IMG/VR virus record: IMGVR_UViG_3300044858_005264
Location: 1 to 20,401 of that record
Strand: one strand, 5' to 3'
Length of the DNA: 20,401 nt
Source of the DNA: a virus
Positions within the stretch are counted from its first letter, which is position 1. Each line of letters starts with the position of its first letter. This document shows, piece after piece, positions 5,383 to 15,619 of this stretch. The notes beneath the pieces are model-generated. The model did not search any database, was not told the DNA's origin, and worked only from the letters and a program-made list of their open reading frames with translations. The translations under genes and the position numbers were made by a program.

Positions 5383-5715
5383 ATGCGCTTGGATCAAGAG
5401 ACTGAAGACACAGATGTACAAAGGCGACGCAGGAGCTATAGTGAGGTTCACGGGTTTGTAGGTAGATTTCCAAACTTTATAAATGAGGGAAACCCACCGT
5501 GCTCCGAAGCAAATCCAGAGGCATTTTTTCCGGAGAAGGGTATGGCCAACACCACCTGGGAAGAAATGAGAATGGCACAAAAAATATGTAAAACTTGCCC
5601 TTATAAGACCCCTTGTCTAAACTGGGCGATAGACAACGCAGAGATGGGCATCTGGGGAGGAACAACAGAAAGAGAGCGAAGACTACTAAGACGCTCAAGA
5701 CGGTTTGCTTCTTAA
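5383..5715 (+). CDS. whiB-like: WhiB-family (Wbl) iron-sulfur transcription factor
   Basis: The 110-residue protein has the four Wbl cluster cysteines: Cys40, then Cys69, Cys72 and Cys78 in 'CKTCPYKTPC' (CxxCx5C). These bind a [4Fe-4S] cluster. 'GIWGG' (89-93) is the beta-turn motif that contacts the primary sigma factor in this family, and the basic tail 'RERRLLRRSRR' (97-107) is the DNA-contacting part. The highly charged N terminus (1-20) is longer than in most short Wbl proteins. Wbl proteins act by binding region 4 of the host housekeeping sigma factor, and phage copies such as WhiBTM4 are known to alter host gene expression. The ATG follows a GGGGA ribosome-binding site that overlaps the end of the FmdB-like gene. 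Confidence 0.93.
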   Translation: MRLDQETEDTDVQRRRRSYSEVHGFVGRFPNFINEGNPPCSEANPEAFFPEKGMANTTWEEMRMAQKICKTCPYKTPCLNWAIDNAEMGIWGGTTERERRLLRRSRRFAS

Positions 5716-9612: not shown

Positions 9613-9788
9613 TTTGCGTCCTCCGTTTCTATGTATCTGTTCCAGCAAGATTGGCACCTATGCCCTTTTGCGTCGTTATCCCAAAGATGAGATAGACGCA
9701 CAACAACCCTGCCCTTGCAGTTAATACACTGCACGGGGTGTCTTTGTACTTTTTTAAGAGAGGTCGTCTTGATCTCTGAGTTTGGCAC
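9609..9788 (-). CDS. Zinc-ribbon small protein, 59 aa
   Basis: A GTG at 9788 with GGGGAG 6 nt before it opens a 59-residue frame with two CxxC knuckles: 'CINC' (21-24) and 'CQSC' (45-48). This is a classic four-Cys zinc ribbon of the sort found in small nucleic-acid-binding proteins. It overlaps the end of the HTH gene by 35 nt and the next gene by 4 nt (ATGA). A later GTG at 9734 is possible but has no ribosome-binding site. The function may be regulatory, next to the HTH protein, but that is inference. Confidence 0.65.
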   Translation of the reverse strand: MPNSEIKTTSLKKVQRHPVQCINCKGRVVVRLSHLWDNDAKGHRCQSCWNRYIETEDAK

Positions 9789-10236
9789 GATGTACTCCCC
9801 AGTACAATGGCTGAGAGGAAGAGATGCCTAGTGCACTTGCAACCTTTGCAAGTGAGATACCTTTGTCATACTCTGCTGCAAGTGCAGTGTGATAAGCGTC
9901 AGGAGACTTTTCCTTAGCTTTTTTAATTCTGTCAATGCCTTTTTGAGTTTGCACCTCAGTCATTGAACTCTTTTTGCGAGACGGTTCTGCTGGAATGTCC
10001 GCTGTAATAACTCGACGGCGTAGACCTGCGTAGGTAACGCCTAATTCTTCTGCTAGTGCAACAAGAGATCCACCCTTCTTGTAGTACTCTACAAGCAGTT
10101 GGGTGTACTCACGACTAGCCTTATGCTCTGGTGTCATGTGTATCCTTGATCCGAAAGCCTTCTTTGCCAGTGGCAAAATTGGCTTAATCTTCTTTGAGTA
10201 TGTTTCTAATAATTTATCTGGTGCCACAGTCGGCAT
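9754..10236 (-). CDS. Protein with two helix-turn-helix-like segments, 160 aa (putative DNA-binding)
   Basis: Two similar HTH-like segments are visible: 'GGSLVALAEELGVTYAGLRR' (55-74) and 'GISLAKVASALGISSSQPLY' (126-145). Each is preceded by a helix rich in Tyr and Lys ('LLVEYYKKGG', 'ALAAEYDKGI'), so the protein looks like a tandem duplication of one HTH unit with a basic linker between. It probably binds DNA as a regulator or a terminase/recombinase-like accessory. It is the second gene after the promoter at 10582-10611 (TAATG overlap with the first), so it may regulate this cluster. Confidence 0.65.
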   Translation of the reverse strand: MPTVAPDKLLETYSKKIKPILPLAKKAFGSRIHMTPEHKASREYTQLLVEYYKKGGSLVALAEELGVTYAGLRRRVITADIPAEPSRKKSSMTEVQTQKGIDRIKKAKEKSPDAYHTALAAEYDKGISLAKVASALGISSSQPLYWGVHRAKLRDQDDLS

Positions 10237-11041: not shown

Positions 11042-11221
11042 TTATTCTTCTTCATCCTCTTTAGGATTACGAATACGATAGGTTGCTACCCAAATAAAGG
11101 TAGACCATAGAATAGCGTATCCAACAATCGTTCGAGCTGAACCATCAAGTACTAGCCAGGCAATAAACATGCCAAGCAGCGTCCATGTCTGGTCAAGCAT
11201 GTCACGGATAAAGTCTTTCAT
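11042..11221 (-). CDS. Two-TM small membrane protein (holin-like topology), 59 aa
   Basis: The ATG overlaps the stop of the giant gene as TAATG. The 59-residue product has an amphipathic start (MKDFIRDMLDQ), two hydrophobic helices ('WTLLGMFIAWLVLDG' and 'TIVGYAILWSTFIWVATY') joined by a tight turn, and a charged tail ending in EDEEE. This hairpin topology is shared with class II holins, and I recall similar small proteins in aquatic phages. The endolysin is on the other strand 4 kb away, so lysis function is only a possibility. The tight coupling to the secreted giant protein suggests they may be used together. Confidence 0.65.
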   Translation of the reverse strand: MKDFIRDMLDQTWTLLGMFIAWLVLDGSARTIVGYAILWSTFIWVATYRIRNPKEDEEE

Positions 11222-14200
11222 TATTTAGGTCTCCTTCTTGGTTTTATTTTATTTTGCTTCTTAACTTGCTTCTTAGGTTTCGTGCCGCCTTCTTTACCAA
11301 GAGGTGCGCCACCGTCGTTACGTGGAGCAGCTGGTCCACCAGCACCGCCACCCTTAGATCCTCCACCTGAAGGAGCACCACCACCTGTACTTGCTGCACT
11401 TGCTGCCGCAAGTTGAGCAGCTCCTGCCGCCGCGTTAACCGCTGATTGAACGGCAATTCCTGTAACAACAACCGCGGCTACAATGACATCCTCGGACTCT
11501 TCGCGTTCCTCCTCAGACATATCCGAGCCCAGACTTCCAAGGGCTAAGAGGACCTGTCCAGGGTCAGAGAATATGGCGCCAATAAGTTCCTCAGGATTTG
11601 CAAGTGTCTCAAAAGCATTGCCAACCTCGGCAGTAATTACAACGCCGTTATTAAGTTCAATCGGTGTATCAGGAGGTAGATCCGCAAGATCAATGCCTGC
11701 TTCTGCAACCGCGTTAACATCTACACCCTTATCACCAGCAAACTGTTCAACAAGCGCATCTGCAACAATATCTTTTTCAGCGGAGGTCAAGTTACCATCA
11801 CCGGAGACAAGCGCAACAATCGCCGCAACGTCTTCCTTGGAAACTTCACCATCTCCTGCAAGAGCGTCAAGAACAGATGCAACCTCATTGGTTGTAAGTT
11901 TTCCATCCTCGGACAGAGCTTCAACGAGTTGATCTGTTTCCTCCGCGCTAACCTCGCCGTCGGCTGCCATTGACTCGGCGATAGCTTCAACCTCATCTGC
12001 AGTAACCTTTCCGTCTGCAAGAGCGTCATCAACCTCTTCAGTTATTTCCTCTTCAGTTGGTGTATTATCTTCAGATGGCGTTTCCTCTTCTGGAGTTGGT
12101 TCTGGATCAACTGGAGTTTCAGGTTGTTCTGGCTCTGGATCAATCGGAGTTTCTTCTTCAGGAGTCTCTGGCTCTTCAGTCTCGGGTTCTGGCTCTACAG
12201 GATTCTCTGGCTCAGTAGGACCATCTGGGTCAACAGGGTCTAATGGATCTACATCAGGGTCTGCTGGGTTTTCTATTTCAATAGGTGTTGTGGTATTATC
12301 ATCAGGTGAAGAAGAATCATCGTCTGGGTCTGTTTGTTCTGGTGACGGCTCTGTTTGGTCTGGTGTCGGCTCTACTGGCTCATCTGGCTGCTCGGGCTCT
12401 GTCTCGGGCTCTTGAGGAGTCGGATTTGTGGGAGTCGGATCAGGAGTAGTTTCGTTATTATTGTCAGATGAGTTTGTATCCGGATTCGTATTATCAGTGG
12501 ATGGCGTGGCATCTGGAGTTGTCGGGGCAGGATCAGGAGTCGATTGAGAAGATCCTCCGTTATTTGTTGGTGGAGCCGGAGTCGGATCCGCAACAAGAAG
12601 CTGAGTAGAAACTTGCTCAGAGTATTTTGCAAGTGAATCATTATCAGAGCGCACAGTAATTTGATACGTCTTATCTAATCCGCCAGTTCCTTCAAATAGT
12701 GAAGCTGGAATAACAATACTTGTGTTAAGAGCATTCGCATCTCCTGCGTTACCAGTTGCTATTCCCCAGCCGGCACCACCCACAGACCAGGACACCGCGT
12801 AACGCTCTGGCATAACTAATCCTGTTGGCGCAGTCCACGTTACTTGAACATCACCATTTGATAGTTGTGTTACCTGCACGTTGCTTGGTGCATTAACCGG
12901 TGTTTGGTTGATAAGCTCTGTTTGAACAACAGTCTGCGCAGTGGCAACCGCTGTGATTGCTTCTTGTGTTTCGGTGATTGCAGTCTGAGCAAGTGCAACG
13001 TATTCCGTGCGAGCAGTCTCAGCGGATTGCGCTAAAACGAGAGTTGCCTGTGCTGATGTAAGATTTGTTTGTGCCTGGGTCTCTGTTGTTTCAAGAGAAG
13101 TAAGAACTGCAGTCTCGGTGTTAAGAGTAGCAACTGCAGATGCTAGTGCATCCTTTTGTTCCTGCGTTGCGTTTGATGTTGTAAACTCAGTTCCAGGAAC
13201 TACCTCCCAGGTTCCTGAAGAAGTGTAGCGCATAAACGCAACGTGAGCTCCACCACCGTTTTCGTAATACCACAACTCAAACACCTTGCTAGTTCCTACC
13301 GCAGTTACAACGTCAACGGTTGATCCGCCTCCACCTTTGTCATGCCAGTCATTGATAACAAGCTCACCATCAAGATAAAGTTTTACACCGTCATCTGCTG
13401 GAGCGTAAACGTATTGTGTTCCTGTGTACTGAGGTGTCCATATACCGGTGTACTTAACAACGGTATCCTCGGATCTGTTAGAGCCAGCAATTGTTCCTCC
13501 GCCCCATTGTTCACTAATTCCATTTGTATCTGTCGTCGTAAGAATAGGTGTTGCTCCTACAGGAATACTTGGTGCGTTGTTTTGTCCTTGAACGCTATAG
13601 ACCTCTACCTTTAATCCTTGAGATGTGTTTGTGTCAACAACTGTCTGCGCAGTATCCTTTGTTGTTTGCGCAGTAGCAACAACAACCTCCTGGGCGTCAA
13701 CCGCAGTCTCGGCCGCTGCTAGAACTGCTGTCTTGTCAGCAACAACCTCGGTAGCTGATGTAACAGTTGTAGTTGCACCAGCTGCTGCTTGTAAACCGTC
13801 TGCAACATCCTTCTTTGCATCTGCTGCTGCAATTGCTGTGGCTGCCTCGGTAATTGCAGTTTCTGCTGTCGTAATCGCAGTTGACGTTGCAGTGGTAGGC
13901 GTGATGTCAACTGCCTTAACTGTTTCAAGAGTTGCAGTAATAACTGGAACAACCGCGTTGGAGACAGTAACCTGTGCATCAGCAACCGCAACCGCTGCCT
14001 GATCTCCTTCAACCTTTGTAGTAGCGGTAGCTACTTCAACCTGTTGTGTTGCAGTAATAACCTGTGCCTGTGCAGTTGCCTCAGCCGCTTGCGCAGTAGA
14101 CAAAGTTGTTTGCGCAGTGGTAAGTGCTTGAGTTGCAGTAGTCTCAGTTGTTTGAAGAGTTGTAAGGGTTGCCTGCTCTGTTGCAAGAGTGGTGTTAGCT

Positions 14201-15336
14201 TCCTGGGCTGCTGCAACGAGAGCTGGGTCCGAGGTTGTCTTTGTAATTACAATGTTATCTACAACGTAATAATCAGCGTCCTTTACAATGGTGACGGTGT
14301 CAATGTTTGTACCTGTGACCGTCTCCGTTGTAGTGTAGCTAACAGACTGAAGTTCAGAAGATACGTTGTTGTCCATAACCGTTGTGGTCGTGGTTCCATC
14401 GGTGTTCGTTGTAATGATCGGTGTGTCGCCGTTTTTAGCGTACACACCCATCACAACTTGGGTAACTGTTCCTGTGTTAGATGGATTAACGTCAATCACA
14501 ACGTTATTGGCTGGATTGATAATTACAAGACCAGGTCCTGATGTTTGAGGAGTATTCCAGCTTCCACCAATAGATACGCCGGTAGATCCTGTAGATGACG
14601 TAACAGTTGTTGTTCCTGTTGTAATCGTTACAGCACTTGTTGTGTTGTTAGTAAATGTCTCGGTAACTGTTGTAGACGTGTTTGCCGCGTTAGCTTCTGC
14701 CTGAGCAGTGGTTGCCGCTTCCTGTGCAGCAGTGACAATAGGTGTCTGTGTTGCGACTGCAGCGGAAGCCTCGGTGACTGCTACCTGTGCAGTTGTAACC
14801 TGCGTGGTAGCCGTCGCAATCTGGGCGGTTGCCTCGGTGACCTGCGTGGTTGCAGTTGTAAGAGAAGTTTGAGCAGATTCCTGCGCTTGCTCAGCGGAAG
14901 CCGCCTCGGTAACCTGTGTAGTTGCATTTGTAACCGCTGCTGTAACAGTTTCGGTTGGTGAGGTAACGGTAGATAAAACAGTGGTTACCTGTTCTATTTT
15001 TGTCTCTAACGTGTTACTATTTGTATCAACCGAAGACGAAAGGGATGATGATGGACTGGATGTCGTTTGCTGTTGGGTTTCTTGCGAACTTTGCGTTCCT
15101 TGGGATTGTTGCGACGTTTGTTGCTGTGAAGGCTGTGAAGGATCAGAAGAAGTAGAGTTCGTTGTGGTTGGCGAGCTATCACCGGTACCTGTTGTTTGGG
15201 TGCCGGTGGTATTTTCTTCTGCGTGAGCTGAGTTAGAAGAAAACACAAGTCCAATACCAGCCACACCTGTAGCTAGTAATAACCTACCTTTATTTCTTGA
15301 TTCGCGCTCTCCCTCGCCTTTTTGGCGGAGCGACAT
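11221..15336 (-). CDS. Giant secreted modular surface protein (signal peptide, coiled coils, PA14, FN3, 18-residue repeats)
   Basis: The 1371-residue protein opens with a Sec signal peptide: basic start, hydrophobic core 'LLLATGVAGIGLVFSS', cleavage expected after 'AHA' (37-39). A Ser/Thr/Gln-rich linker (40-108) follows. Ala/Thr/Gln-rich coiled-coil-like stretches cover about 110-220, 371-570 and 721-810, with a beta-rich region between at 222-366. A PA14 domain (574-720) has the Asp648-Asp649 pair in 'PADDGVKLYLDG' that in PA14 adhesins binds calcium and sugar. An FN3 domain (812-916) is followed by a Pro/Asp/Glu/Thr linker (917-1100), five exact 18-residue repeats (1103-1192), a hydrophobic Ala-rich helix (1283-1316), a Gly-rich stretch and a strongly basic tail. 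No LPXTG motif or cysteine is seen. AGGAAG precedes the ATG. It could be a host-surface adhesin made during infection or an unusual fibre. Confidence 0.8.
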   Translation of the reverse strand: MSLRQKGEGERESRNKGRLLLATGVAGIGLVFSSNSAHAEENTTGTQTTGTGDSSPTTTNSTSSDPSQPSQQQTSQQSQGTQSSQETQQQTTSSPSSSLSSSVDTNSNTLETKIEQVTTVLSTVTSPTETVTAAVTNATTQVTEAASAEQAQESAQTSLTTATTQVTEATAQIATATTQVTTAQVAVTEASAAVATQTPIVTAAQEAATTAQAEANAANTSTTVTETFTNNTTSAVTITTGTTTVTSSTGSTGVSIGGSWNTPQTSGPGLVIINPANNVVIDVNPSNTGTVTQVVMGVYAKNGDTPIITTNTDGTTTTTVMDNNVSSELQSVSYTTTETVTGTNIDTVTIVKDADYYVVDNIVITKTTSDPALVAAAQEANTTLATEQATLTTLQTTETTATQALTTAQTTLSTAQAAEATAQAQVITATQQVEVATATTKVEGDQAAVAVADAQVTVSNAVVPVITATLETVKAVDITPTTATSTAITTAETAITEAATAIAAADAKKDVADGLQAAAGATTTVTSATEVVADKTAVLAAAETAVDAQEVVVATAQTTKDTAQTVVDTNTSQGLKVEVYSVQGQNNAPSIPVGATPILTTTDTNGISEQWGGGTIAGSNRSEDTVVKYTGIWTPQYTGTQYVYAPADDGVKLYLDGELVINDWHDKGGGGSTVDVVTAVGTSKVFELWYYENGGGAHVAFMRYTSSGTWEVVPGTEFTTSNATQEQKDALASAVATLNTETAVLTSLETTETQAQTNLTSAQATLVLAQSAETARTEYVALAQTAITETQEAITAVATAQTVVQTELINQTPVNAPSNVQVTQLSNGDVQVTWTAPTGLVMPERYAVSWSVGGAGWGIATGNAGDANALNTSIVIPASLFEGTGGLDKTYQITVRSDNDSLAKYSEQVSTQLLVADPTPAPPTNNGGSSQSTPDPAPTTPDATPSTDNTNPDTNSSDNNNETTPDPTPTNPTPQEPETEPEQPDEPVEPTPDQTEPSPEQTDPDDDSSSPDDNTTTPIEIENPADPDVDPLDPVDPDGPTEPENPVEPEPETEEPETPEEETPIDPEPEQPETPVDPEPTPEEETPSEDNTPTEEEITEEVDDALADGKVTADEVEAIAESMAADGEVSAEETDQLVEALSEDGKLTTNEVASVLDALAGDGEVSKEDVAAIVALVSGDGNLTSAEKDIVADALVEQFAGDKGVDVNAVAEAGIDLADLPPDTPIELNNGVVITAEVGNAFETLANPEELIGAIFSDPGQVLLALGSLGSDMSEEEREESEDVIVAAVVVTGIAVQSAVNAAAGAAQLAAASAASTGGGAPSGGGSKGGGAGGPAAPRNDGGAPLGKEGGTKPKKQVKKQNKIKPRRRPK
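11761..12030 (-). repeat. Five tandem 54-bp units encoding 18-residue Asp-Gly repeats
   Basis: Within the giant protein, Asp-Gly pairs recur at residues 1108, 1126, 1144, 1162 and 1180, exactly 18 apart. Each unit reads like 'DGKVTADEVEAIAES' or 'DGEVSKEDVAAIVAL': a DGx(V/L)(T/S)xxE loop followed by a short helix. A degenerate sixth unit may follow at about 1202. The loop resembles half of an EF-hand or dockerin calcium loop, but the acidic residues before the Gly are fewer than in a true EF-hand. DNA identity between units is only partial, so the repeat is old or under codon drift. Confidence 0.75.
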
Positions 15337-15343
15337 TTACTTC

Positions 15344-15619
15344 CTAATTATTAGTATCTGTATCAGTATTGGGTATGTATGAAGGGTGGGCTTCTTTGTC
15401 TGGCCACGTCATCGCGCGGACATCAAACGCTAGGGTCATTACCTCGTTAACGAGGTCCTCTACTACGATGAGTAGGTCTGCACGTCGATCTACGTTGATT
15501 GGATCTACAAGCTCCTCTCTTACAATTGCAACAGTATTGACGCACGCTGAAAGTCGTTGTTGGTTGCGAGCGAGCGCCTCCAAGAACAACGGATGATTGT
15601 ATGGACTGTCATCGTGCAT
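15344..15619 (-). CDS. Unknown helical protein, 91 aa
   Basis: The product begins MHDDSPYNHPLFLEALARNQ, has two long helices ('QQRLSACVNTVAIVREELV', 'RRADLLIVVEDLVNEVMTLA') and a polar tail with Thr-Asp repeats (TDTDTNN). No membrane segment or family is recognised. There is no Shine-Dalgarno; a TAAAAT box lies 7 nt before the ATG, which suits a leaderless transcript. Its stop is 7 nt before the giant gene, with which it is probably co-transcribed. Confidence 0.65.
   Translation of the reverse strand: MHDDSPYNHPLFLEALARNQQRLSACVNTVAIVREELVDPINVDRRADLLIVVEDLVNEVMTLAFDVRAMTWPDKEAHPSYIPNTDTDTNN

Follow-up and report, generated by a model that had tools for sequence, protein, structure and literature searches.

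Phages encode superinfection-exclusion membrane proteins and receptor-masking lipoproteins, of which T4 Imm and T5 Llp are examples, and exclusion genes are often early. To our knowledge, no phage exclusion protein is a stalked protein of more than 1000 aa with a dedicated partner. The long stalk of the enterococcal surface-exclusion protein PrgA presents a protease domain (PMC10588982). A search of the literature on phage PA14 surface proteins found nothing. Among named phages, relatives of the protein described here were found only in phage DSL-LC01, whose predicted host belongs to the Actinomycetia (PMC10611076), apart from a weak PA14 match in HTVC008M.

The stretch analysed here (the window) is a 20.4-kb virus record from IMG/VR, and BIG is the label used for the protein encoded by its ORF at 11221..15336. 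The ORF runs on the minus strand (15336 -> 11221) and encodes 1371 aa, and the coordinates reported in the first-pass annotation are exact. AGGA, a Shine-Dalgarno-like sequence, lies just 5' of the ATG. At the other end, the stop codon and the start of the next gene overlap in TAATG, which AAGGAG closely precedes. This gene (TM59; 11042..11221, minus strand) encodes a 59-aa protein with two TM segments, as seen from its translation and from comparison of neighbours and loci, and the coupling recorded in the first pass was confirmed. Upstream of BIG lies a 91-aa gene in the same direction (15344..15619, minus strand; translation and neighbour comparison), which had been suggested as a helper of BIG. 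The gene exists, but the proposed role did not hold up: a homologue adjoins a BIG relative only in DSL-LC01 (31% identity), which makes membership in a module with BIG improbable, and the gene was dropped as a partner because its linkage to BIG relatives is not conserved. The window also encodes a WhiB regulator (5383-5715; Pfam E 6.9e-18), which fits an actinobacterial host, as well as a B12-type ribonucleotide reductase, a CHAP endolysin and an SNase. Together with the kinship to DSL-LC01, these neighbours indicate an actinophage, and the hosts of phages with BIG are probably freshwater actinobacteria.

From its translation, its relatives and their alignment, BIG appears to be a secreted, membrane-anchored modular surface protein, and all of its parts lie on the minus strand. 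It starts with a predicted Sec signal peptide (MSLRQKGEGERESRNKGRLLLATGVAGIGLVFSSNSAHA|EEN, cut at SAHA|EE; residues 1-39, 15220..15336), the same pattern being seen in relatives. An Ala/Thr-rich coiled-coil helix (residues ~108-217, 14686..15015) is followed by a beta domain, here called domain X (residues ~220-368, 14233..14679), that is recognised from the alignment and from a partly low-confidence AlphaFold model and that received no name in a Pfam search. A second set of coiled-coil helices (residues ~371-569, 13630..14226) leads to a PA14 domain (residues ~573-720, 13177..13620) with an Asp-Asp pair in ADDG. Pfam PF07691 matches residues 573-668 of this domain (E 1.1e-6, 29 bits, above the gathering score of 24), the best PDB sequence matches are RsgI3 6qe7 and 6qdi, and its Foldseek fold neighbours are sugar-binding adhesins. 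A third coiled-coil helix (residues ~725-810, 12907..13164; AlphaFold) connects PA14 to an FN3-like domain (residues ~818-912, 12601..12885), a segment in common with DSL-LC01. Sequence and alignment then show a Pro/Glu/Thr-rich stalk (residues ~920-1095, 12052..12579) and acidic helical repeats (ADGxVTAxE...; residues ~1096-1190, 11767..12051). The conserved motif G-x-D-M-S-x-E-E-R precedes a C-terminal hydrophobic anchor helix (VIVAAVVVTGIAVQSAVNA...; residues ~1284-1310, 11407..11487; alignment and hydropathy), and a Gly-rich/Gly-Ser linker connects this helix to a basic tail that ends in KPRRRPK and is predicted to be cytoplasmic (11224..11340).

Most of this build had been read correctly in the first-pass annotation. 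The claimed signal peptide and PA14 domain with an Asp-Asp pair were borne out, and the Pro/Glu-rich stalk and basic tail are both visible in the translation. Structure prediction, which had been proposed as a check, gave long helices alternating with beta domains (AlphaFold, residues 100-925, mean pLDDT 72.5), in agreement with the Ala/Thr coiled coils described there. The FN3 domain stands only in part: an AlphaFold beta fold at ~818-912 and a weak Foldseek match to the FN3 domain 2yrz speak for it, but Pfam made no FN3 call in BIG. The hydrophobic helix at ~1284-1310 and the beta domain at ~220-368 had been missed.

The two ends of BIG are its most constant parts. A signal peptide is present in all complete relatives although their ectodomains diverge beyond alignment, and an A-x-A/G site lies just past the N-terminal hydrophobic stretch in all 55 complete in-frame relatives found via TM59. 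Basic tails with a charge of +2 to +4 occur in 69 of 69 relatives. The mean Kyte-Doolittle value of the anchor helix over 19 residues is 2.03 (KD19 in relatives, 1.6-2.4); its Ala/Gly-rich composition and moderate hydrophobicity are a point against an anchor. A Sec signal peptide combined with a C-terminal hydrophobic helix and a basic tail strongly suggests a type-I membrane protein with its ectodomain outside and its tail inside. No LPXTG motif is present in the BIG translation. Judging from sequence, BIG is quite probably exported and displayed on the membrane of the infected cell; this localisation is well supported, and its function is what we infer below.

Wherever the sequence of a relative includes the downstream end, the TM59 gene lies 3' of BIG, and within the same set of relatives TM59 is 57-75% identical and BIG 37-58%. 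A search of IMG/VR viral contigs gave at least 576 TM59 loci, of which 80 were fetched and used to count linkage. In 77 of these 80, the upstream gene bears a BIG-type anchor: the upstream gene is complete with the anchor in frame in 56 (55 by pattern and L026 by eye), the anchor or its tail is present and interrupted by the contig end in 15 (tail only in L103), and the anchor is in the -1 frame in six. Among the rest, L053 has a disrupted frame and L039 is too short for judgement. L036 (286-687) is the sole clear TM59 locus without BIG; its upstream gene encodes a different small secreted protein, of 133 aa, with VLVVDKCPEFCP repeats. The BIG homologue of DSL-LC01 has a C-terminal TM59-like hairpin (aligned over 47 columns at 28% identity, P 2.5e-5), and this protein is, on the evidence of its sequence, a natural fusion of the BIG and TM59 genes. 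The linkage and the fusion support the first-pass suggestion that the two-TM protein helps to anchor BIG. There is little doubt that BIG and TM59 make up a two-gene module, and TM59 as a dedicated membrane partner of BIG is strongly supported. Pairing of an acidic TM59 tail with the basic BIG tail was considered and rejected, since most TM59 tails have a charge near -1 and some are positive.

Twenty-two BIG relatives were found in IMG/VR viral contigs. In a 16-way alignment, the two ends, with the signal peptide pattern and the C-terminal anchor, are retained, and the parts between them are exchanged. The FN3 domain is present or absent, domain X is absent, inside PA14 (L021) or, in DSL-LC01, present in a diverged form, and PPAEE repeats or an Ala/Glu/Lys-rich helix may substitute for the stalk. 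The ectodomains at the TM59 loci fall into nine BLAST groups. Most BIG relatives start with GTG or TTG; in three of them (L017:7602, L018:7608 and L022:3745) there is no ATG, GTG or TTG near the signal peptide, and the apparent start, ATT or ATC, is preceded by a GGAG-like site. A serine recombinase gene of ~220 aa lies directly upstream of BIG in L001-L010, L019 and L020 and is absent from the window; such a recombinase could shuffle the BIG region. Scans of 84,980 cellular genomes returned no TM59 relative and, for BIG, only generic partial-domain matches without any relative of the module, and a cellular origin of the module was rejected on this basis. In addition, no TM59 relative was found in 50,697 phage records, and no relatives were found on plasmids. 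The BIG family is apparently large and virus-only.

One sub-branch of the family, the L030 group, is organised differently. Its zero-frame protein consists of the signal peptide, a hairpin and PA14 and then meets a stop codon; the anchor follows in the -1 frame, with no ordinary start codon nearby. The AlphaFold model of L030, a short relative (mean pLDDT 79.6), has helices at 29-157 and 329-448 flanking PA14, which we read as a helical hairpin tipped by PA14. After further search, the set comprised 35 loci with 28 distinct sequences (sites include L030:5383-5452, L035:5729-5798, L046:5672-5741 and L058:4398-4467). A slippery heptamer X-XXY-YYZ abuts the UAA in all 28 (CCCAAAA in 18, TTTAAAA in nine and AAAAAAA in one). 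In all 24 aligned sequences, CCCCC lies five nucleotides past the heptamer (UAA plus two) and pairs with GGGGG ~45 nt further on, and the proline codon at this stem is always CCC, though any CCN would serve. Inner stems remain paired through different letters in two groups, as counted by a script for each group. RNAalifold, run on all frameshift sequences, returned only the outer stem, which is invariant and so gives no covariation. The arrangement of slippery heptamer, UAA and stem is that of programmed -1 frameshifting, from which both a secreted and an anchored product are to be expected. We consider it very probable, from these sequence features, that programmed -1 frameshifting operates in this sub-branch, where it would determine how much of the protein is released and how much is anchored. 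A literature search on frameshifting between secreted and anchored forms found nothing. In the BIG of the window, the anchor is in frame.

The genomic context of the module varies. In five large contigs, TerL lies 0.7-1 kb downstream of BIG-TM59 on the same strand, with a small HTH gene between them; in L016, L018, L021 and L022, holin-like and CHAP endolysin genes come directly after BIG-TM59. This adjacency to terminase or lysis genes makes a late-type position of BIG-TM59 likely, which speaks against an exclusion role in so far as exclusion genes are often early. The window itself encodes a 160-aa HTH-like protein (9754-10236), a candidate small terminase or regulator; in several relatives, its homologue separates TM59 from the large terminase. 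In DSL-LC01, the BIG homologue is at 14-17 kb, TerL at 44 kb and the capsid and tail genes at 68-83 kb, far from the BIG homologue. A receptor-binding domain common to BIG and to the phage's own fibres was considered and rejected, since PA14 occurs once per genome and always in BIG (11 of 13 large contigs).

Taken as a whole, we think it reasonably probable that BIG and TM59 are a surface-display module expressed in the host, most likely for surface exclusion or receptor masking. The host would export BIG and anchor it in its own membrane with TM59, and the helical hairpins and Pro/Glu or helical stalks would hold PA14, domain X and the FN3-like domain away from the membrane and through the wall. 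By analogy with adhesins, BIG is probably a sugar-binding protein, and we infer that its ectodomain would bind host wall glycans or neighbouring cells and in this way alter adsorption to the infected cell. On the model of PrgA, the benefit would be superinfection (surface) exclusion or receptor masking; this assignment of the benefit is drawn by analogy and is tentative. BIG may also keep progeny from sticking to debris. The same display could instead make infected cells sticky and so hold particles, glycans or uninfected neighbouring hosts nearby at the time of progeny release. The resemblance of PA14 to sugar-binding adhesins, the multiple binding modules on long stalks and a position that is probably late, close to terminase and lysis genes, would fit such adhesion, and the released form of the frameshift branch could cross-link cells. 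However, among the first-pass suggestions of a block to superinfection, aggregation or glycan binding, the likeness to PrgA gives indirect evidence for exclusion, and short members with one tip domain are poorly suited to cross-linking, which leaves adhesion as a rather unlikely benefit.

A role in lysis or release, in which BIG and TM59 would assist holin and endolysin, for instance by disrupting or bridging an outer wall layer or by keeping progeny off wall debris, appears improbable. The position directly upstream of the holin-like and endolysin genes in four relatives suggests it, and TM59 is holin-sized with two hydrophobic segments; but linkage to lysis genes is not general whereas that between TM59 and BIG is, no lytic domain was found in BIG by the Pfam search, and identification of TM59 as a known holin was rejected for want of a solid match to named holin families. 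Still less probable, to the point of being very doubtful, is a virion receptor-binding or head-fibre protein whose hydrophobic N-terminus is incidental. BIG is fibre-like in size and modularity, the large terminase is nearby in five genomes, and PA14 is also found in phage proteins named adsorption or tail proteins, which counts against surface display. A tail fibre would carry no export signal and be encoded with the tail module; BIG has a signal peptide, and its homologue is outside the virion module of DSL-LC01, though the module is near terminase elsewhere. Exported proteins would miss the cytoplasmic assembly of tails. The first-pass preference for a secreted, adhesin-like host-surface protein over a tail fibre is thus upheld by the conserved signal peptide and C-terminal anchor, the near-constant two-TM partner, the glycan-binding type of PA14 and the position in DSL-LC01.

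We lean towards regarding BIG-TM59 as an undescribed, virus-specific surface-display system, in which exchangeable ectodomains are combined with one conserved anchor and a two-TM partner, which would remodel the host surface in hundreds of uncultured, probably actinobacterial, phages, and which in one sub-branch uses frameshifting at a stop codon. Lytic phages are rarely thought of as rebuilding the host exterior. A common glycan-binding stalk module would let phages of abundant aquatic actinobacteria control phage competition, cell contact and progeny release, and hundreds of genes that lack annotation gain a meaning through it. If true, the frameshifting in the sub-branch would be an uncommon use of recoding, to set secretion versus anchoring.

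Compared with known systems, BIG is like T4 Imm and T5 Llp in being phage-encoded, in its predicted export or membrane association and in its proposed action at the envelope of the infected cell, but those proteins are small. With the PA14 glycan-binding adhesins (the Marinomonas adhesin PA14, the Epa/Flo lectins and RsgI3), which usually need calcium to bind sugar and are its best PDB neighbours by sequence and by fold, BIG has the PA14 fold and the Asp-Asp pair in common; the likeness is limited to this domain, outside which neither BIG nor its partner is related to them. The protein WJZ48438.1 of the Actinomycetia phage DSL-LC01 (OQ999401.1) has a signal peptide, domain X-like and FN3-like domains, a stalk and an anchor helix, and, as in the window, a homologue of the 91-aa gene precedes it; it differs in that the two-TM hairpin is fused C-terminally and PA14 is missing, and it is annotated as hypothetical only. 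PrgA/SEC10 (TIGR04320, 6z9l) is likewise encoded by a mobile element and exported, with a long stalk and a distal functional domain. A long coiled-coil stalk presenting a head domain, as in PrgA/SEC10, is seen in the AlphaFold models, with export by the predicted signal peptide. The second coiled coil of BIG gives a TIGR04320 (SEC10/PgrA surface exclusion) match (E 1.9e-9; 37.3 bits, below the curated cut-off of 70), which recurs in seven of 16 relatives and is lost when BIG sequences are shuffled. Foldseek aligns the hairpin with PrgA (6z9l) over 538 columns at a TM of 0.30 and an rmsd of 15, values that indicate likeness, not homology. PrgA is plasmid-borne and cell-wall anchored and has a protease-type head (PMC10588982), whereas BIG is phage-borne and combines PA14, domain X and the FN3-like domain with a membrane anchor and a two-TM partner. 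BIG therefore resembles a PrgA-type stalked surface protein in its build and is not a member of the PrgA family.
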